A stretch of 7,033 nucleotides of DNA, taken from NCBI GenBank assembly GCA_028278625.1, contig JANQDY010000115.1, positions 1 to 7,033 on the forward strand, read 5' to 3'. The DNA is from Thermodesulfobacteriota bacterium (GTDB lineage: Bacteria; Desulfobacterota; DSM-4660; Desulfatiglandales; Desulfatiglandaceae). The first letter of the stretch is position 1, and each line of letters begins with the position of its first letter. The notes beneath the pieces are model-generated. The model was not told where the DNA came from. It searched no databases and saw only the letters and a program-made list of their open reading frames with translations. Below are positions 1 to 7,033 of the stretch, piece after piece. Position numbers and translations under genes: made by a program.

Positions 1-217
1 TGAGGTGAAAAAAATGGCCGCCCTGTACCGCACCCGTTTTGAGCAAATGCTCATAATATCGGCTTGACCGCGTTCTGACTTTTTACGAGACCATCAATGT
101 TAAATAACGAAAATAAGGGCGGGGAAGGCGAGGGATGGCTGGGTCACACTAAACTCACCGCTTGACACCCAAAAGGGGAGAAGGATCATTTATGGGTGAA
201 AATGTGAGCTGTCTCAA

Positions 218-250
218 TTGAAAAAAAGGCGGACGCCCCCTATTTTTCAA
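218..250. terminator. Probable bidirectional intrinsic terminator
   Basis: A perfect 8-bp outer inverted repeat (218-225 against 243-250) encloses a GGC/GCC core (228-230 and 235-237) with a 4-base loop. Read on the minus strand, the core is followed by seven T residues (221-227), the classic intrinsic-terminator layout for the serine kinase operon. Read on the plus strand, the core is followed by CCCTATTTTT, so it may also stop transcripts arriving from the left. It overlaps the last codons and the TAG stop of the hydrolase remnant. The GC core is only three strong pairs, extended by possible G-U wobbles, so efficiency is uncertain. Confidence 0.55.
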
Positions 251-449
251 AAGCACGGATGCTGACATCTACCCCGGTAAAGGCAATGGCGGTACCGGCG
301 TTGTTGAAGAAGAACCTGTCCGGGCCCAGACGACCGGCCAGATAACAGGGGGGCTTTAGTCCGGTGCAGTGGGAAACCCCGATTTTATCAACCCGAAGCT
401 CCAAAAACATCTCCGCGGTTTGTTCCTGCTGATTTGGAGGGATACCTGG
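240..449 (-). pseudogene. C-terminal remnant of a metallo-beta-lactamase-fold hydrolase
   Basis: This minus-strand frame of 69 codons ends in TAG at 240-242. It reads as the tail of an MBL-fold hydrolase of the dihydropterin/aminobenzene-phosphate-synthase-like group. The segment VDKIGVSHCTG contains the HCTG element whose histidine is normally the last metal ligand, and RFFFNNAGT follows as in the family's C-terminus. Everything before this is missing: intact family members are roughly 250-300 residues and need the N-terminal HxHxDH motif, which is absent here. The frame is the same as that of the serine kinase gene directly upstream, with only its TAG stop (450-452) between. An internal ATG at 408-410 could start a 56-residue peptide, but it has no Shine-Dalgarno sequence. 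The remnant has no internal stops or frameshifts, which suggests a recent truncation. A translated fragment kept for some purpose is less likely. Confidence 0.6.
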
Positions 450-1322
450 CTAATCAAAAAACAGAAACAATTCTTCTTCATAATATCGGCCATTGATGAT
501 TTGACCGGGACCGAAACGCTTTATTTTTTTCTTCTTCAAATGCGCAACGAATCGCTCATTTATCTCTTCTAAAGGGATATCCTCTTTAAGCCAGTTTGTG
601 GGGATATTCAGGTTAAGGGGTCGGGCCGGAATCAGATGACGGGTGGTTTTAGGGGCGAACACCTTTTTCTTTTTGACCGCTTCCAAAACCATTTCCTTGG
701 AAATCAGCGGCGTCCAGATGATGACCTGGTCCTCACCGACCCTTTCGTAGGATTCATCCTCAAATACCGACTGGCACGGCACATACCGCAGATTCGCGCC
801 TCTATCCACCAGATGCTTCTGGATCTTCTCCGCAAGGCCGTAAGCACTGACCGCGTCAGGAACCAGGGAATCGGGGAACCTGACAAGTGCAAAAGCGTCA
901 CCGTATTGGATGCCGCAGGGAAATTGATGCTTCTCCAACGCCTGTTTCAGAGCCTCCCGGCTTTTCACCCGCTGAATGCTTCCCCCCATCACTTCCCCAA
1001 GATGTTTCAATAGATCCGTGGTCTTGACGTTTAAAAGGTGCCTAAACCAATAACGCAACTGAACACATTCGTTACGGTAATCTATTTTGCAGACCGAAAT
1101 GTAATTGAACTTTAACTCTTTGAAGGCGAACAACCGGTGATGCCCGTCCAGCACCATGTGATCCCTGTCCACAATGATGGGATTCTTGAGATTCGTTGAG
1201 TTTCGGAATTCCATCATCAATTGATCGGCTTTACCGTGAATGATCTCTTCGTGCTGAGACAACAACTTCACCGGAACGACTTCCAACTGCAATCTCAGCT
1301 CTTCTGTATCAATGTAAAACAT
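450..1322 (-). CDS. SerK/SbnI-family free serine kinase (ParB-like fold)
   Basis: The 290-residue product resembles the ADP-dependent free serine kinase SerK of Thermococcus and staphylococcal SbnI, which convert L-serine to O-phospho-L-serine in the cytoplasm. Visible elements in order: a QHEE segment (residues 23-26), whose first glutamate matches the proposed catalytic glutamate after the conserved His; the ParB-like motif LDGHHR (58-63); an FALV strand (144-147); and the diagnostic KTTRH motif (225-229) followed by a proline-containing tail. Known members are about 240-255 residues. The extra length is a C-terminal extension rich in lysine (about 256-290) ending in aromatic residues. The start is fixed by an in-frame TAA three codons upstream of the ATG. 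The Shine-Dalgarno match is poor (a GGA about 14 bases away), so translation may depend on the gene upstream. It lies 43 bases behind the T-protein/SHMT fusion, which makes its serine substrate. A DNA-binding ParB-like regulator is the main alternative, but the KTTRH tail argues for the kinase. Confidence 0.75.
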   Translation of the reverse strand: MFYIDTEELRLQLEVVPVKLLSQHEEIIHGKADQLMMEFRNSTNLKNPIIVDRDHMVLDGHHRLFAFKELKFNYISVCKIDYRNECVQLRYWFRHLLNVKTTDLLKHLGEVMGGSIQRVKSREALKQALEKHQFPCGIQYGDAFALVRFPDSLVPDAVSAYGLAEKIQKHLVDRGANLRYVPCQSVFEDESYERVGEDQVIIWTPLISKEMVLEAVKKKKVFAPKTTRHLIPARPLNLNIPTNWLKEDIPLEEINERFVAHLKKKKIKRFGPGQIINGRYYEEELFLFFD

Positions 1323-1365
1323 ACGGTTTTAATGATTCCAAATAAGCAAATGAAAAGATCAATCG

Positions 1366-4023
1366 TTAAATCTGTGCCAGTAATGCTTGTATCAGGTCTT
1401 GATAGGCATCTTTGGGAAAGCAGTATCCGAGCTCAAGGAATTTTTTCCGAAAAGCTTTCACATCTGTTGCCACCGTGGCGTTTCCGATGACAACATCTTT
1501 GATCATCTGGGCCAGCACGCCGAAATCTTCCTGTTTCATGCCGAATCTCGTCATCTCGGAAACACCCAAGCGCAGCCCGCCGGCAGCCGTAAACCCCTCC
1601 TCCGTGGGAACCGCCTGATAGTTGCATATAATATTGTTGGCTTCCAAACGCCTGGCCAGATCGGGCCCTTTCGAGTACCCGACATGCACCACCACTTGAT
1701 GTGTTTCGGTGTAACCAACATCGGGGTCACCGGCCACATCCATGCCGCAGTTTCTAAGGGCCTTGGCAAATGCCTTTGCATTGGCAATGACCTGTTGCTG
1801 ATATTCATCCCTGAAATGGTTCATCTCATAGGCAGCGGCCAGAAGCCCCAGCAAGGTCCCCAAATGATGGTTTGAAACCGAACCGGGGAAGGTCCGCCGA
1901 ACGATCGCCTCCCAAAGAGCGTAGCGTTCATCCTGCTCAACATACCTGCTTCCGATAACCCCCCGCTGTGTCCCGAAAAACGTTTTGTGGGTGGAGCCGG
2001 TCACCAGGTCCGCACCTTCTTCAAAGGGGGACTGAAAATGAGAACCGATAAGCCCCAGAACATGTGCCATGTCATACATGAGTACTGATGCGATTCTCTG
2101 CTCGTCCAAAAACCGACGGATTTCCCGAACAGGCTCCTTGTGTATGACAAGGCTCTTGCCCAATATGATCAACTCCGGCCTGAATTCATCGATCAACCGA
2201 AGGGTGGCCGGCACATCCATTTTGTAAGGATTCCCTTCGAGAACCGGAAAGTTCTGCACTGCCGGGCGTTCCGTATGCGGATCTCGGGCCACGAAATCTT
2301 TAAGCGCACCCATGGGTTGGGCGCTTAAATGACCCCCTTTCCCGATATGGTTACACATGACCCTGGCTATCCGGCGAGGCTCGGTTTTGCGATCCGTACG
2401 GTTCAGGTAGTCCATGAGAGCGCTGAAAATGGCCATGTTGGCCATCTGCCCGCTGACAACACGCGTTTCCACCGCTTCACAACCGAGGAACGCAGCCATC
2501 TCCCTCTCCAAAAGCCATTCCACTTCCGAGATAAAATCAGTGCCCTGGTAGTACAGGATGTCGTCATTATAAAAGGCTTCGGATTTCTTGTGCTCCGCAT
2601 AACGAAACGCCGGATCCATCACGGACAAAAGCCTGACCATGGGGGAAGGGGTCATTTCCGATGGAATCAGATTTATGCACTCCCGCTGCCGCCAAAGCGT
2701 ATTATCAAGGGTCTTCTGAAGAAGCCTGCGAATTTTGATCGGTTCTTCCTCCAAAGCCGGTTCTTCGGTGGAAGCTTCATAACTTGAAAGAATCGGTCTC
2801 GCGTATGGCGGGGCATCGGAGCGCATATGGAATGGGACCACTTCCCCTGCGCGGCGTTTGCCGCGAATTTCCACGGAGACCCTGGTTTCTTCAATCACAT
2901 CGCTATCCATATACGCCAGGCAAATGGAGCGAAGCTGGTGTTCGTTGCTTTGAACGGATAACAACCCTTTGCCTTCCACGGACCAGTATGGAACCATCGT
3001 GCCGCTGGTGACATGGCCCACAAGCTTATCGCCCACGAAGATTTTCGACCCGGCCCGGGACACACCCCTGTCAATCATGGCAACCGGCTTGATCATCCGG
3101 GGGAGGTCCTTAATACGTGAATAATCTCTGGCCATTATCCCTTTGAAAGCCTCAAACTGCTTTAGTAGCGCATGGCGACCCAGAAAATCACCCTTCAGGG
3201 GAGAGAAGCTGACGGCAAATTTCGCCAGGGGACAGGCCATGACCGGGATTTCATTTCCCTCCGCATCAATGCCCAGTTCATGACCGTAGAGGGGAAGCCC
3301 CGCTTCCAGCCGAAGGGTATCTCTGGCGCCAAGGCCTATGGGAATGGCGCCTTTTAGAACTAGCTGATCCCAAAGCAGGAGACCTCGGCCGCGGTCAGCG
3401 AAAATCTCAAAACAGAGCGGTTCACCGGTATAACCGGTTCTGGCGATCATGACCCGGCCTTCGGGAGCGGGTATCACCTTTACACTGTTTCTCTTGGGCT
3501 CGGGAAGACCATTGGCACCAAACAACTCCGTCAGGATGCCCTTGGAATGAGGCCCTTGCAGGGAGAGCATTACCAGGGTTTCGGTGACATCAATCAGTTC
3601 CACGTTGTCGAATCCCGTGAGAATCGACGCAAAGTGTTGCCAGTCTTTTTCCCGATTGGCGGCATTTACGACCAAAAGGAACTCGTCATCCAAAAATCGA
3701 TACAGGTAGGCATCATCAATGGCGCCGCCCGTTTCATTCTGCACGAAGGTGTACTGGGCACCTGTTTCACTGGCATCAAGGGCTTCGGCATTGTTTGAAA
3801 GAACATACTGTAAAAACTCGAGGGCCCCCTCTCCGCGCACCAGAAACCTTCCCATATGGGAAACGTCGAATAAGCCGGATTTCTTGCGGGTTGCGAGATG
3901 CTCTTGTACAATGCCCGTGGGATACATGATCGGCATTTCCCAACCACCGAAATCAACCATCTGCGCTCCCAGATCTTTGTGCCGCCCATAAAAAAGGGTT
4001 CTTCGGATGTTGACGTTCATCAT
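1366..4023 (-). CDS. Fused aminomethyltransferase (GcvT) and serine hydroxymethyltransferase (SHMT)
   Basis: One uninterrupted 885-residue frame encodes two full enzymes. Residues 1 to about 405 are glycine-cleavage T-protein: MVDFGGWEMP (22-31), FDVSHMGR (52-59), the catalytic-aspartate DD pair (103-104), TGYTGE (196-201) with the folate-site glutamate, GARDTLRLEAG (232-242) and a C-terminal EIRGKRRAGEVV barrel segment. After an acidic linker (about 410-430) comes SHMT: LIPSE (452-456), YAE (475-477), GGHL with ring-stacking His565, DMAH (651-654), the PLP Schiff-base lysine K680 in STHK, FPGSVSNHH (712-720) and carboxylate-binding R818 in GGLRLG. The STHKTFFG, SNHH and TRxGMK elements resemble archaeal SHMT more than bacterial GlyA. 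Both active sites look intact, so the product probably forms methylene-THF from an aminomethyl donor and uses it to make serine from glycine in the cytosol. Two ATGs are adjacent. The second (4020) is better spaced (7 bases) from the AGGA at 4028-4031 and may be the true start. No P-, H- or L-protein gene is visible here. Confidence 0.88.
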   Translation of the reverse strand: MMNVNIRRTLFYGRHKDLGAQMVDFGGWEMPIMYPTGIVQEHLATRKKSGLFDVSHMGRFLVRGEGALEFLQYVLSNNAEALDASETGAQYTFVQNETGGAIDDAYLYRFLDDEFLLVVNAANREKDWQHFASILTGFDNVELIDVTETLVMLSLQGPHSKGILTELFGANGLPEPKRNSVKVIPAPEGRVMIARTGYTGEPLCFEIFADRGRGLLLWDQLVLKGAIPIGLGARDTLRLEAGLPLYGHELGIDAEGNEIPVMACPLAKFAVSFSPLKGDFLGRHALLKQFEAFKGIMARDYSRIKDLPRMIKPVAMIDRGVSRAGSKIFVGDKLVGHVTSGTMVPYWSVEGKGLLSVQSNEHQLRSICLAYMDSDVIEETRVSVEIRGKRRAGEVVPFHMRSDAPPYARPILSSYEASTEEPALEEEPIKIRRLLQKTLDNTLWRQRECINLIPSEMTPSPMVRLLSVMDPAFRYAEHKKSEAFYNDDILYYQGTDFISEVEWLLEREMAAFLGCEAVETRVVSGQMANMAIFSALMDYLNRTDRKTEPRRIARVMCNHIGKGGHLSAQPMGALKDFVARDPHTERPAVQNFPVLEGNPYKMDVPATLRLIDEFRPELIILGKSLVIHKEPVREIRRFLDEQRIASVLMYDMAHVLGLIGSHFQSPFEEGADLVTGSTHKTFFGTQRGVIGSRYVEQDERYALWEAIVRRTFPGSVSNHHLGTLLGLLAAAYEMNHFRDEYQQQVIANAKAFAKALRNCGMDVAGDPDVGYTETHQVVVHVGYSKGPDLARRLEANNIICNYQAVPTEEGFTAAGGLRLGVSEMTRFGMKQEDFGVLAQMIKDVVIGNATVATDVKAFRKKFLELGYCFPKDAYQDLIQALLAQI

Positions 4024-4026
4024 TTG

Positions 4027-4033
4027 TTCCTTT
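4027..4033 (-). promoter_or_regulatory. Ribosome binding site of the GcvT-SHMT fusion gene
   Basis: The minus strand reads AAAGGAA here. The AGGA core is 4 bases from the first ATG (4023) and 7 bases from the second (4020). The second is the more usual spacing, so the protein may begin at MNVN rather than MMNVN. Confidence 0.55.
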
Positions 4034-4111
4034 GTCTATGCCTTATATCTTACTTTCCCTTGGACGATTCAAGAGAAGGTCCGGAATCTTGGTTCTGGAT
4101 ACGAGATTATC

Positions 4112-4140
4112 ATGCTAACACAATCATGGAGCGTTTTCAA
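4112..4140 (-). promoter_or_regulatory. Candidate sigma-70 promoter for the GcvT-SHMT / serine kinase operon
   Basis: On the minus strand, TTGAAA (4135-4140, five of six matches to the -35 consensus) is followed after exactly 17 bases by TAGCAT (4112-4117, four of six to the -10). A TG one base before the -10 makes it an extended -10. Transcription would start near 4105 and leave an untranslated leader of about 80 bases before the fusion gene. I saw no glycine- or THF-riboswitch-like motif in that leader by eye. Confidence 0.45.
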
Positions 4141-4154
4141 CAAATGAGTGCCAT

Positions 4155-4177
4155 ATTTATGAGGAAATCGCATAAAT
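4155..4177. repeat. Inverted repeat, candidate operator in the divergent intergenic region
   Basis: ATTTATG (4155-4161) and CATAAAT (4171-4177) are perfect 7-base inverted arms around a 9-base spacer. The centre-to-centre distance is 16 bases, about one and a half helical turns. The repeat lies just upstream of the minus-strand promoter candidate and upstream of the plus-strand one, a position where a dimeric regulator could act on both. The region is AT-rich, so a chance match is possible. Confidence 0.3.
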
Positions 4178-4187
4178 TTCAAAAACG

Positions 4188-4270
4188 TATTGACCAAATC
4201 ATCAATTTGTTATAGGCAAACTTCTGAAAAGTGCCACTGTTCCTTGGGGTGGGGTTCTAGCAGGTCAATA
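4188..4270. repeat. Widely spaced 8-base inverted repeat pair
   Basis: TATTGACC (4188-4195) and GGTCAATA (4263-4270) are perfect inverse copies whose starts are 75 bases apart, close to seven helical turns. The left arm overlaps the candidate -35 box of the amidohydrolase gene and the right arm ends five bases before its Shine-Dalgarno sequence. They could be paired regulator half-sites or chance. An RNA stem between them would need a transcript starting upstream of 4188. Confidence 0.25.
4190..4216 (+). promoter_or_regulatory. Weak candidate promoter for the amidohydrolase gene
   Basis: TTGACC (4190-4195) is followed after 15 bases by TATAGG (4211-4216). Both boxes match the sigma-70 consensus in four or five positions, but the spacer is two bases short of optimal. 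Transcription would begin near 4223, giving a leader of about 65 bases. Confidence 0.25.
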
Positions 4271-4274
4271 TTTT

Positions 4275-4279
4275 GGAGG
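4275..4279 (+). promoter_or_regulatory. Shine-Dalgarno sequence deciding the amidohydrolase start
   Basis: A clean GGAGG sits 9 bases before the ATG at 4289. It selects that ATG over the longer in-frame opening at 4190, whose extra 33 residues look nothing like the family. Confidence 0.7.
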
Positions 4280-4288
4280 CATGCTTTC

Positions 4289-5449
4289 ATGGATTTAAAA
4301 AAAAGGGTTGGTGCATACGGAGAAGAGATCATCCGCATTCGACGCGACCTTCACCGTATTCCGGAACCCGGGCTAAAAGAGGAAAAGACTTCCGCAACCG
4401 TTGCCGATCTTTTGGAGAATCTGGGGCTGCCCGTGGAACGGGGTATTGCGAAATACGGCGTGGTCGGTCTTCTCACATGTAAAACACCCGGAAAGACCCT
4501 GATGATCCGTTCCGACATGGATGCCCTGAACATAACCGAGGAAACAGGTTTGCCGTTTGCTTCAACCCATGAAGGCTTCATGCACGCATGCGGTCATGAT
4601 GGCCACATGGCCATGGTTTTGGGCGCTGCAATGGTGCTGAGAGAACTGGGCGGGGTCCTGAAGGGCAACGTGAAATTCCTTTTTCAGCCGGCGGAAGAGG
4701 GTCCCGGCGGGGCCAAACCAATGATCCAAGCCGGGGTCATGGAAAACCCGAAGGTGGATTACGCGGTCGGTTGCCATCTATGGCCCGATCTATCAGAAGG
4801 GGTTTTCGGGGTGAAAGCCGGGCCTCTGATGGCGGCGATGGATCACTTTGAAGTCAAGATCATGGGAAGAGGAGGGCACGGGGCCATGCCTCACCTGTGC
4901 GTGGACGCCCTGGAAGTGGGGTCCCAGGTGGTCAACGGGCTTCAGAGAATCGTGAGCAGGCATATGAATCCATTGAATCCCGCGGTGGTGACCATCGGTT
5001 CGTTTCATGCGGGGACCACCTACAATGTGATCCCAAACGAGGCCGTACTGACCGGTACGACACGGACCTTTGATCGAAACATATGGCTCACTTGGCCCGA
5101 ACGTCTTGAAAAAATCATCAAAGGTGTCTGCGGCTCCATGGGCGCCCGGTATCGTTTGAACTACACACAAGGATATCCGCCAACGGTAAATGACCCTGGC
5201 ATGGGTGAACTGGTCAGAAAATGCGCCAGCCAGGTGTCGGGCCCTGAAATGGTGGTGGCGCCCGAACCCACCATGGGCGGAGAGGATATGGCATTTTATC
5301 TGGACCGCTCGCAGGGCTGCTACTTCTTTTTGGGGGTTGGCCGCCCCGAGTGTGCCCCCCTTCACAACGCCAAATTCGATTTTGACGAGCAGGTGTTGCT
5401 GAAGGGTGTGGAAGCCTATTGCCGCATTGCCACAGAATTGCTGAGCTGA
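4289..5449 (+). CDS. M20D-family N-acyl amino acid amidohydrolase (hippurate hydrolase-like)
   Basis: This 386-residue zinc/manganese-dependent amidohydrolase belongs to peptidase subfamily M20D, whose members split N-acyl amino acids such as hippurate, N-acetyl amino acids or indole-acetyl conjugates. The length is typical (about 380-400). Metal ligands are visible: C101 and H103 in HACGHDGH, E137 in FQPAEEG (the preceding E136 being the catalytic base), H163 in GCHLWP and H359 in PLHN. GRGGHGAMPH (193-202) begins the lid/dimerisation domain and TMGGEDM (328-334) precedes the last ligand. There is no signal peptide or membrane segment, so it is probably cytosolic. It is transcribed alone, divergently from the fusion operon and convergently to etfA. 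Substrate cannot be read from the sequence. The divergent arrangement with glycine/serine genes makes an N-acylglycine or other amino acid conjugate conceivable, but that is inference. Confidence 0.85.
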   Translation: MDLKKRVGAYGEEIIRIRRDLHRIPEPGLKEEKTSATVADLLENLGLPVERGIAKYGVVGLLTCKTPGKTLMIRSDMDALNITEETGLPFASTHEGFMHACGHDGHMAMVLGAAMVLRELGGVLKGNVKFLFQPAEEGPGGAKPMIQAGVMENPKVDYAVGCHLWPDLSEGVFGVKAGPLMAAMDHFEVKIMGRGGHGAMPHLCVDALEVGSQVVNGLQRIVSRHMNPLNPAVVTIGSFHAGTTYNVIPNEAVLTGTTRTFDRNIWLTWPERLEKIIKGVCGSMGARYRLNYTQGYPPTVNDPGMGELVRKCASQVSGPEMVVAPEPTMGGEDMAFYLDRSQGCYFFLGVGRPECAPLHNAKFDFDEQVLLKGVEAYCRIATELLS

Positions 5450-5452
5450 AAA

Positions 5453-5525
5453 AAAGAAAACCCTGTAGACCCTTCATAGAAACACGGAAAACGGTGAAAA
5501 GGTATTTCTTGAAAGGTCTCAGGGT
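5453..5525 (-). terminator. Probable terminator of the etf operon
   Basis: Arms at 5460-5471 (ACCCTGTAGACC) and 5515-5525 (GGTCTCAGGGT) pair over 11 bases with one bulged base, around a 43-base loop. On the minus strand the stem is followed at once by TTTTCTTTTTTT (5459 down to about 5450), as expected downstream of etfA. The T run is the A-rich tract right after the amidohydrolase stop. The long loop is unusual for an intrinsic terminator, so confidence is moderate. Confidence 0.4.
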
Positions 5526-5555
5526 AACCGCACACCCGGTTAAGTGAGGCTCACT
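5525..5555. repeat. Two small hairpins at the end of etfA
   Basis: TAACCG (5525-5530) pairs with CGGTTA (5537-5542) around six bases. Immediately next to it AGTGA (5543-5547) pairs with TCACT (5551-5555) around three bases, including the etfA TGA stop codon. Neither has a T run of its own. They may stabilise the 3' end of the mRNA or belong to the neighbouring terminator. Confidence 0.3.
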
Positions 5556-6537
5556 GAATGTACTTCTTCACTTCCTCCGAGAGGGCGGGGACCACGTCGA
5601 AAAGATCTCCCAGGATACCGTAGTTGGCCACCTTGAATATGGGCGCTTCAGGATCGGTATTGATTGCCAGAATGACCTTGGAACTTCCCATGCCGGCAAC
5701 ATGCTGAATGGCACCGGAAATGCCGCACGCCACATAGAGGGTCGGTGAGACCACCTTGCCGGTTTGCCCCACCTGGTCTGATTCAGGGCGCCATCCCGCA
5801 TCCACCGCGGCCCTGGAAGCACCAACCGTTGCGCCCAGGAGATCGGCCAGTTCCTCCAGGATCTTGTAGTTTTCAGGCCCTTTCATGCCCCGGCCCCCGG
5901 AGACGATCCTGTCGGCTTCCGTGAGATCCGGTTTTTCGCTGTCACCGGCAATCACTTCCACGACTTTGGTTTTGAGGGCCTCTTCCGGCAGGGACACGGG
6001 TACATCAACCATTTCCCCTTGTCTTGTCGTGTCCGGATCGGCAATCTCCATCTGGTTGGGCCGTATTGTCACCATTTGGGGCCAGCTCTCCTTGAACGTC
6101 ACTTCCACGTACGCTTTTCCCGAATAAACCGGCCTTAGGGCAACCAGCCGCCCCTCATCGATTGACAGCTGGGTACAGTCCGGCGCAACCATCACCTTGA
6201 GTCTGGCACCCAGCCGGGCTGAAAGATCTTTTCCCTGCATGGAGGCCCCCATGATCAGTATTGCGGGATCGCTCGATTTGACCAGATCTCCGATCACGTG
6301 AACAAAAGCGTCGGTGGTGTAGATGGCAAGACCCGGGTCATCCGCCACCAGTATTTTGTCGGCACCATATTGACCCAGTTCCGCTGCCTGCTCTTTGATA
6401 TCACTCCCCAGCACCAAAACAGCCAGGTCCTGGCCCAGGGCATCAGCAAGACGTCTCCCCTCGCTGACGGCTTCATAGGTGATTCTTCTAAACTGGCCGT
6501 CTCTTTCTTCGGCGACGACCCATACTCCACTAGGCAT
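5551..6537 (-). CDS. etfA: Electron transfer flavoprotein, alpha subunit
   Basis: The 328-residue EtfA holds the electron-carrying FAD of the cytosolic ETF heterodimer and passes electrons from acyl-CoA or related flavin dehydrogenases to a membrane quinone oxidoreductase. The N-terminal half (about 1-195, starting GVWVVAE) is the adenine nucleotide alpha-hydrolase-like domain. The C-terminal FAD domain shows GGRGMKG (214-220), GASRAAVDAGW (239-249), QVGQTG (255-260), and the EtfA signature from LYVACGISGAIQH (267-279) to AIN (291-293), followed by DPEAPIF and an ADYG-like ANYG. Length and motifs are fully standard. The ATG is preceded by AAGGAG (6543-6548) at 5 bases. It lies 15 bases behind etfB, so the two are co-transcribed in the usual B-A order. 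Its dehydrogenase partner is not in the window. Confidence 0.96.
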   Translation of the reverse strand: MPSGVWVVAEERDGQFRRITYEAVSEGRRLADALGQDLAVLVLGSDIKEQAAELGQYGADKILVADDPGLAIYTTDAFVHVIGDLVKSSDPAILIMGASMQGKDLSARLGARLKVMVAPDCTQLSIDEGRLVALRPVYSGKAYVEVTFKESWPQMVTIRPNQMEIADPDTTRQGEMVDVPVSLPEEALKTKVVEVIAGDSEKPDLTEADRIVSGGRGMKGPENYKILEELADLLGATVGASRAAVDAGWRPESDQVGQTGKVVSPTLYVACGISGAIQHVAGMGSSKVILAINTDPEAPIFKVANYGILGDLFDVVPALSEEVKKYIQ

Positions 6538-6552
6538 TTCCGCTCCTTCTTA

Positions 6553-7033
6553 TTAAATGACCTTGGCTTCTTCATGAAGCAGTCGGGCCGCCCCGGCTGC
6601 CTGCTCCTGCGGGGTTTCACCCTGGACCATGGTAACTTCGGGTCTGGCGGGTGGTTTCATCATCTTGAGCACCGTCAATTTGCTGGCCTGTTCCCCGAAT
6701 TCACTGGGATCCAAGCCCAGGTCCGTCAGCGTCATCTGGTCCAAAGGCTTTTTCTTGGCCTTCATAATGTTGGGCAATGTGGCATAACGGGGTTCATTCA
6801 ACCCTTTCTGGGCCGTTATCAAAGCGGGAAGCCCCGCTTCAATGACCAGGGTGCGCCCTTCGATAGGACGGTGGGCCCTTAAAGACTTACCGTCGTCCGA
6901 GATCTCCAATTGGCGGATGACCGAGAGCTGGGGAATATCGAGCATTTCAGCCATGTACGCCCCAACCAGACCCATATCCTGGTCAATGCCCCGTTGCCCC
7001 GTAAAAATAAGGTCGAAATCAAAGTCCGCCACG
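6553..7033 (-). CDS. etfB: Electron transfer flavoprotein, beta subunit (C-terminal part)
   Basis: About 160 C-terminal residues of EtfB are present; roughly 100 N-terminal residues lie beyond the right edge, so the true start is not visible. The fragment begins in the nucleotide-binding strand DLIFTGQRGID (7-17 of the fragment), continues through EGRTLVIEAGLPALIT (58-73), and contains the recognition loop LNEPRYATLPNIMKAKKK (78-95), nearly identical to that of mitochondrial ETF, with the leucine that anchors dehydrogenase partners. It ends in the usual LLHEEAKVI-type tail. The loop and the GIDQD (rather than DGDTAQVGP-like) nucleotide segment suggest a conventional, non-bifurcating ETF, but the missing N-terminus prevents a firm assignment. 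It is the upstream partner of etfA. Confidence 0.94.
   Translation of the reverse strand, partial: VADFDFDLIFTGQRGIDQDMGLVGAYMAEMLDIPQLSVIRQLEISDDGKSLRAHRPIEGRTLVIEAGLPALITAQKGLNEPRYATLPNIMKAKKKPLDQMTLTDLGLDPSEFGEQASKLTVLKMMKPPARPEVTMVQGETPQEQAAGAARLLHEEAKVI

Follow-up and report, generated by a model that had tools for sequence, protein, structure and literature searches.

A gene at 1366..4023 on the minus strand of a 7,033-nucleotide stretch of DNA from a Thermodesulfobacteriota bacterium (contig JANQDY010000115.1, positions 1 to 7,033; the whole stretch is called the window below) encodes a genuine single-chain fusion of the glycine cleavage system (GCS) T-protein, GcvT, and serine hydroxymethyltransferase (SHMT). 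Judged from its sequence, the product is probably a bifunctional enzyme, comprising an N-terminal GCS T-protein (aminomethyltransferase) and a C-terminal, derived folate-dependent SHMT. Computation establishes the domains, their conserved catalytic residues, the conserved fusion or adjacency of the two halves and an association with gcvH and gcvP in several relatives. The gene is a single open frame of 885 codons plus a stop in the open reading frame (ORF) list, and the same stretch read on the plus strand contains stops. From the N-terminus, the chain consists of the GCV_T folate-binding domain (residues 12-252, 3268..3990; Pfam PF01571, 241 bits, E 1.6e-71), a partial match to the GCV_T_C barrel (residues 365-397, 2833..2931; PF08669, 33.7 bits against a cut-off of 25.9, E 3.5e-08), a linker of variable sequence and near-constant length (residues 409-427, 2743..2799) and the SHMT domain (residues 437-841, 1501..2715; PF00464, 129 bits against a gathering cut-off of 27, E 1.9e-37), all encoded on the minus strand. 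The ORF and the Pfam domains bear out a preliminary description of this DNA, which had placed GcvT and SHMT in one frame at this position without stating the strand.

The fusion is not a single odd case but one member of a large and widely spread family. Three protein searches were performed with the window protein, the fusion of Vescimonas fastidiosa and a planctomycete fusion (genome G022; working labels in G and L denote genomes and loci) as queries, and the best 120 of several thousand matches were listed for each. PF01571 and PF00464 are both present in 360/360 of these listed proteins, which are 839-913 residues long, include the window's own protein and form the basis of all counts out of 360 given below. 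A single cluster, 93% identical to the Vescimonas protein, comprises 2497 sequences. An assembly artefact, set out beforehand as one finding that would overturn the fusion, was considered and is rejected, since both domains occur in all 360 listed relatives, including the Desulfoluna records and the Vescimonas fastidiosa replicon.

The proposed database search for GCV_T-then-SHMT proteins shows the build to be common to sulfate reducers, Clostridia, Planctomycetota and, by label, others. Among the matches listed, the nearest named relatives of the window protein are metagenome-assembled genomes (MAGs) of Desulfobacteraceae and Desulfobacterales. The source labels from its search are Desulfobacteraceae, Desulfobacterales, Deltaproteobacteria and Acidobacteriota, and further labels are Dehalococcoidia, Chloroflexota, a Thermoplasmata archaeon and Candidatus Zipacnadales (an Armatimonadota order), although MAG labels may be wrong. 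Named taxa with the fusion are the sulfate reducers Desulfoluna spongiiphila and D. butyratoxydans and also Vescimonas fastidiosa (Clostridia), and the fusion is also found in Planctomycetota. The Vescimonas fastidiosa record gives Homo sapiens as its source, and the genus is presumably of gut origin. In genome searches, a full-length match at E <= 1e-100 was found in 2/99 genomes of the phylum group of locus L009 and in 2/149 of that of locus L001, both times G072 and G022. L009 (WYBR01000070.1) is labelled Vicinamibacteraceae, yet its phylum group contains the same genomes as that of the Planctomycetota record L001; the label is probably wrong, and both are treated here as Planctomycetota. 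At 19 further genome-contig loci with GcvT matches, several of which end near the match, no SHMT of either kind was found in the DNA examined. Viral contigs matched GcvT twice, both times over part of its length, with one of the matches at the end of its contig. On a short contig from a virus collection (L024, 34-504), an ORF begins with about 60 GcvT residues and continues with unrelated sequence, as a chimera or recombination product would.

The protein names shown are GcvT, aminomethyltransferase or glycine cleavage system T protein, with two UniRef names cut at 'Aminometh' and 'Pyridox'. Since the named fusions among the matches listed are mostly labelled GcvT or aminomethyltransferase only, their SHMT goes unseen in annotation. 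No description of a GcvT-SHMT fusion was found in the literature, which was covered mostly at abstract level and with most subscription journals outside coverage. In the main text of a 2026 paper on the Desulfobacterota reductive glycine pathway (PMC12827605), no word starts with 'fus', 'bifunctional' or 'chimer'. As far as these searches show, the joining of these two known enzyme families in one chain is widespread in databases yet apparently undescribed in the literature searched.

The T half scores as a T-protein. The window protein reaches 249 bits with the gcvT equivalog model TIGR00528 (cut-off 235.85), and 6/6 other T halves examined also pass (242-284 bits); the cut-off of 300 for the subfamily PRK00389 is narrowly missed by the window (298.6) and by G072 (297.1). 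An Asp pair and an Arg are kept in all 360 listed fusions, three Tyr in 359-360 and the next Asp in 353, positions that we take to be the catalytic Asp and the folate-side residues of T-protein. Within the pair, Asp104 (3712..3714, minus strand; 360/360) aligns with the IDD motif in the Thermotoga maritima T-protein at its second Asp, presumably the catalytic Asp96.

The SHMT half, or S half, keeps the residues of pyridoxal phosphate (PLP) chemistry. In the numbering of Escherichia coli GlyA, Ser35, Tyr55, Glu57, Tyr65, His126, Ser175, His203 and Arg363 are present in 360/360 fusions, Asp200 in 359/360 and Tyr64 in 356/360. Lys680 of the window protein (1984..1986, minus strand) aligns with Lys229, which we take to be the PLP Schiff-base lysine and which is present in 359/360, the remaining row being a gap. 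Among solved structures, the nearest by sequence is the Methanocaldococcus jannaschii SHMT (4uqv/4bhd), which is also the best-ranked SHMT by structure. The S half is, on its sequence, a derived SHMT with PLP and catalytic residues kept. Standalone relatives were located by using the SHMT half alone as a query, which matches 26/392 genomes at E <= 1e-30, with more than 420 bits only in G172, G072 and G022 and 215-295 bits in the other 23. When 20 loci (G172 and 19 of the 23 weaker ones) were examined by tblastn, the S match was recovered in all and GcvT only in G172, though some contigs end near the gene. One such locus of a standalone sister SHMT, L084 of genome G391, carries a GcvH-like stretch at 6823-7179, with no GcvT in the DNA examined.

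Several findings weigh against the bifunctional reading, beginning with how far the S half has departed from SHMT. The SHMT subfamily model NF000586 (PRK00011) has a cut-off of 335 bits; the window reaches 243, and the S halves of 7/7 units examined, the window included, score 238-261. The standalone sister SHMTs pass in 6/6 cases examined (of 23 found) with 377-393 bits, and E. coli GlyA scores 678. Fixed changes in the fusions are Gly58 to His (360/360), Ser99 to Gln (357/360) and His129 to Ala or Ser (358/360), and on the folate side Asn347 to Gln and Lys346 to Tyr or Phe (each 359/360); in the window protein the last two are Tyr802-Gln803 (1615..1620, minus strand). We take Lys346 and Asn347 of GlyA to belong to the folate-side NKN motif, in which Asn347 and its neighbours contact folate, and substitutions in the NKN region weaken folate binding in other SHMTs. 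With these substitutions fixed, use of folate by the S half is not assured. In 10 standalone sister SHMTs the RYAEH motif is absent, positions 99 and 347 are never Gln and His129 is never lost; Tyr at 346 recurs in two of them (G205, G285). An ordinary GlyA simply appended to GcvT is rejected on the SHMT cut-off and the fixed substitutions, and with it the earlier view of the SHMT half as an ordinary GlyA. The statement that all key active-site residues are visible is correct for the T half and, within the SHMT half, for PLP chemistry; it does not extend to the folate-side motif and several other fixed SHMT positions.

These changes invite a different assignment, in which the S half would have lost folate-dependent SHMT activity and become a PLP aldolase or transaldolase of the serine/threonine type that supplies or removes glycine beside the cleavage system, leaving the T half as the only user of folate. 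This assignment is unlikely. The fluorothreonine transaldolase model TIGR04506 gives 119 bits against a cut-off of 650, Glu57 and Tyr65, which we assume to serve the folate reaction, are invariant in the listed fusions, the near-universal Gln at 347 marks that position as constrained rather than relaxed, and a gene for 5-formyl-tetrahydrofolate cyclo-ligase lies in the Vescimonas cluster described next.

The functional tie to glycine cleavage put forward in the preliminary description is supported by two lines of genomic context. On the Vescimonas fastidiosa replicon NZ_AP023416.1, the fusion comes first in a cluster, followed on the same strand by gcvH, gcvPA, gcvPB, lpdA and the cyclo-ligase gene. 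Near this cluster (L020, 5601-10546) are genes for a homocysteine S-methyltransferase-family protein, a DUF2284 protein, a cobalamin-dependent protein and an amidohydrolase, a hint of further one-carbon (C1) metabolism. The planctomycetes G172, G419 and G445 have gcvH-gcvPA-gcvPB without an adjoining gcvT (the 3.3 kb contig of G445 cuts gcvPB), and their other GCV_T matches amount to 44.8 bits, 59.3 bits and none, respectively; the T of the T-S unit is the only convincing T-protein in these three genomes. G459 has gcvH, gcvPA and gcvPB spread over two contigs and an extra T fragment, probably a strain variant, at a contig end beside what is apparently the same neighbour as at its T-S locus.

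Other aspects of context join the points against the bifunctional reading. The window itself, at 7 kb, shows no gcvH, gcvP, lpdA or cyclo-ligase gene. In G072 and G429 a further gcvT lies near gcvP, so the role of main T-protein may fall to another protein there, and no P-protein was found in G022 and G425, genomes that are possibly incomplete. A separate ordinary SHMT (GlyA) is present in G072, G022 and G172; the same search found a fragment in G459 and none in G419, G425, G429 and G445, whose assemblies are possibly incomplete. The T half might draw on a different donor of aminomethyl or methyl groups, in the manner of sarcosine and dimethylglycine oxidases and trimethylamine N-oxide (TMAO) demethylase, with the S half capturing the C1 unit as serine and the link to the GCS secondary. 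The genomes without a detected P-protein and those already provided with a T near gcvP speak for such a role, as does a pair of electron transfer flavoprotein (ETF) genes about 1.5 kb upstream of the fusion in the window, although a gene on the opposite strand separates the pair from the fusion. The GcvT equivalog cut-off is nevertheless passed by 7/7 T halves examined, and the Vescimonas cluster and the three planctomycetes with gcvH and gcvP point to glycine cleavage. The soxA and TMAO demethylase models fall far below their cut-offs, which counts little as these models span further domains. Taken together, a different donor is very unlikely.

The remaining point against the bifunctional enzyme as a single chain is a natural split form, found in one planctomycete family. 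Among 101 genomes of the family of G172, 11 match at E <= 1e-60, comprising 2 fusions (G429, G425), 4 adjacent but separate T and S genes (G172, G445, G419 and G459, the S gene of the last cut by a contig end) and 5 plain GcvT. The T-S unit is found in 8 planctomycete genomes in all, fused in 4 and split in 4. In the split form the halves are neighbouring genes with stops between them (L071, 7796-10485; also L102, L103 and L104), and its existence shows that the covalent linkage is dispensable.

In trees of 19 units each, the T halves form one clade (100/98) and the S halves form one clade (100/100, stem 0.87). The same groups recur in both, namely window-type with Vescimonas-type (89/95 and 88/99), G429 with G425, G172 with G459 and G419 with G445. 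This concordance fits a single origin of the T-S pairing followed by joint inheritance or transfer. In the T tree the split pairs are nested with two fused planctomycete proteins (97/97), but trees constrained to unite all fused rows survive the approximately unbiased test (p-AU 0.188 for the T half and 0.183 for the S half). The split form may have arisen by fission or may reflect an ancestral gene pair.

The linker was described at first as acidic, about 20 residues long and located around 2734-2808. Its position holds, and 6/19 of its residues are acidic here, but acidity is not a family trait, as the median is 19% across 97 representatives at 80% identity. In 85/97 of these representatives the linker spans 39-42 residues between two anchors, with a mean majority-residue frequency of 0.27 vs 0.64 and 0.71 in the halves. 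A structure of the whole chain predicted from 125 sequences has a predicted local distance difference test score (pLDDT) of 92 and a predicted template modelling score (pTM) of 0.90; an earlier model from 60 sequences was poor (pLDDT 64, pTM 0.49) and is not used. The predicted structure, at these scores, implies a fixed arrangement of the two halves. No Protein Data Bank (PDB) chain spanning both halves is among the best 50 matches listed in either structure comparison.

Given the near-constant linker length and the pTM of the model, channelling of methylene-tetrahydrofolate (methylene-THF) between the halves is plausible. Two working enzymes could also be tied together for equal dosage or assembly, with no direct transfer of the intermediate, an account that is compatible with the bifunctional reading and opposes channelling only. 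The co-occurrence of fused and separate adjacent genes within one family and the poor conservation of the linker sequence favour this account, which the linker length and the confident whole-chain model resist; it is a possibility to be taken seriously, though not the expected one.

Glycine-serine exchange and a large part of the C1 supply run jointly through the GCS and SHMT. In the proposed bifunctional enzyme, the T half would take the aminomethyl group from H-protein and release methylene-THF and NH3, and the S half would add the methylene group to a second glycine and return THF; folate would serve both sites of the single chain. Together with P-, H- and L-protein, the overall reaction would be 2 glycine + NAD+ <-> serine + CO2 + NH3 + NADH. 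We infer the two activities and their direction; since each step is reversible, the enzyme could work in either direction, and from serine to glycine the roles of the halves would swap. In other modes, with both halves making or both using methylene-THF, the sites would compete for folate and channelling would be meaningless. Channelling as the reason for the fusion would therefore imply glycine-serine interconversion as the physiological reaction. Tentatively, the unit may be a module dedicated to making serine from glycine, with one folate shuttling between two fixed sites of the chain. The S half would then have been rebuilt (NKN to NYQ, lost His129, new loop) to take methylene-THF from its own T half and not from solution, an arrangement that would be kept across distant phyla and, within one planctomycete family, in addition as a complex of two separately encoded halves; this extension is doubtful at present. 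Direct handover of methylene-THF is hard to test with separate proteins, and the natural fusion, for which the split homologues offer controls, would allow it to be tested directly.

The minus-strand gene order in the window is an EtfB-like gene cut by the window end, an EtfA-like gene, the fusion and a SerK-like gene, with an M20 carboxypeptidase-like gene on the plus strand between EtfA and the fusion. The SerK-like gene (450..1322, minus strand), encoding a SerK/SbnI-like relative of free serine kinase, starts 43 bp after the fusion stop. It matches NCBIfam NF053625 at E 5.5e-18, with 65 bits against the SerK cut-off of 380, and the free serine kinase 5x0b in the PDB at E 3.8e-08, with Glu25 aligned to Glu30 of 5x0b, which is presumably catalytic. 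In this genome the kinase may phosphorylate serine made by the fusion. By analogy with gcv-glyA-serine ammonia-lyase clusters elsewhere, such a gene would agree with serine being what the fusion makes here, though it scores far below the SerK cut-off. It does not show up as a conserved partner: tblastn detected it at none of 17 loci, of which 9 are T-S loci (some lying on short contigs) and 8 are gcv loci from those genomes, plasmid records gave no match at E 1e-5, and a literature search gave no description of a serine kinase together with SHMT. The M20 amidohydrolase/carboxypeptidase-like gene (4190-5449, plus strand) is divergent from the fusion and scores 409 bits with the CpsA model (cut-off 500). 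The ETF pair (5551-7032, minus strand) consists of a complete alpha and a beta cut by the window end; for alpha the best model, of the acryloyl-CoA reductase type, gives 312.6 bits (cut-off 600).

Several known systems resemble the fusion in part. From ordinary GcvT (TIGR00528, PF01571), the T half differs in being fused or gene-paired with SHMT and, compared with four ordinary T-proteins in an alignment, in carrying insertions in 7/8 T-S rows, G022 excepted. From GlyA, both the M. jannaschii type and the bacterial standalone relatives, the S half differs in lying below the SHMT cut-off, in the changes of NKN to NYQ, of THG to an SAQ type and of SGSQAN to SGQMAN, in an insertion before the YY motif and in its long stem branch. 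The L-threonine transaldolase 7k34, which we take to be of the ObaG type, is likewise an SHMT-fold PLP enzyme without NKN in the alignment, whereas the window protein misses the TIGR04506 cut-off; we know of no T-protein partner for L-threonine transaldolase. Clusters of gcvP, gcvT, gcvH, glyA and serine ammonia-lyase, for example on a plasmid of Arthrobacter sp. NicSoilB8, follow the same logic of glycine cleavage and SHMT followed by a serine-using enzyme, but with separate proteins and with serine ammonia-lyase where the window has the SerK-like gene. The GcvT-like domains of sarcosine oxidase alpha, dimethylglycine dehydrogenase and TMAO demethylase are likewise GcvT folds joined to a partner enzyme. 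In those amine-oxidase fusions the matched GcvT-like part is C-terminal and takes C1 units from the oxidase or demethylase, whereas here GcvT occupies the N-terminal side and its partner is an enzyme that uses C1 units.
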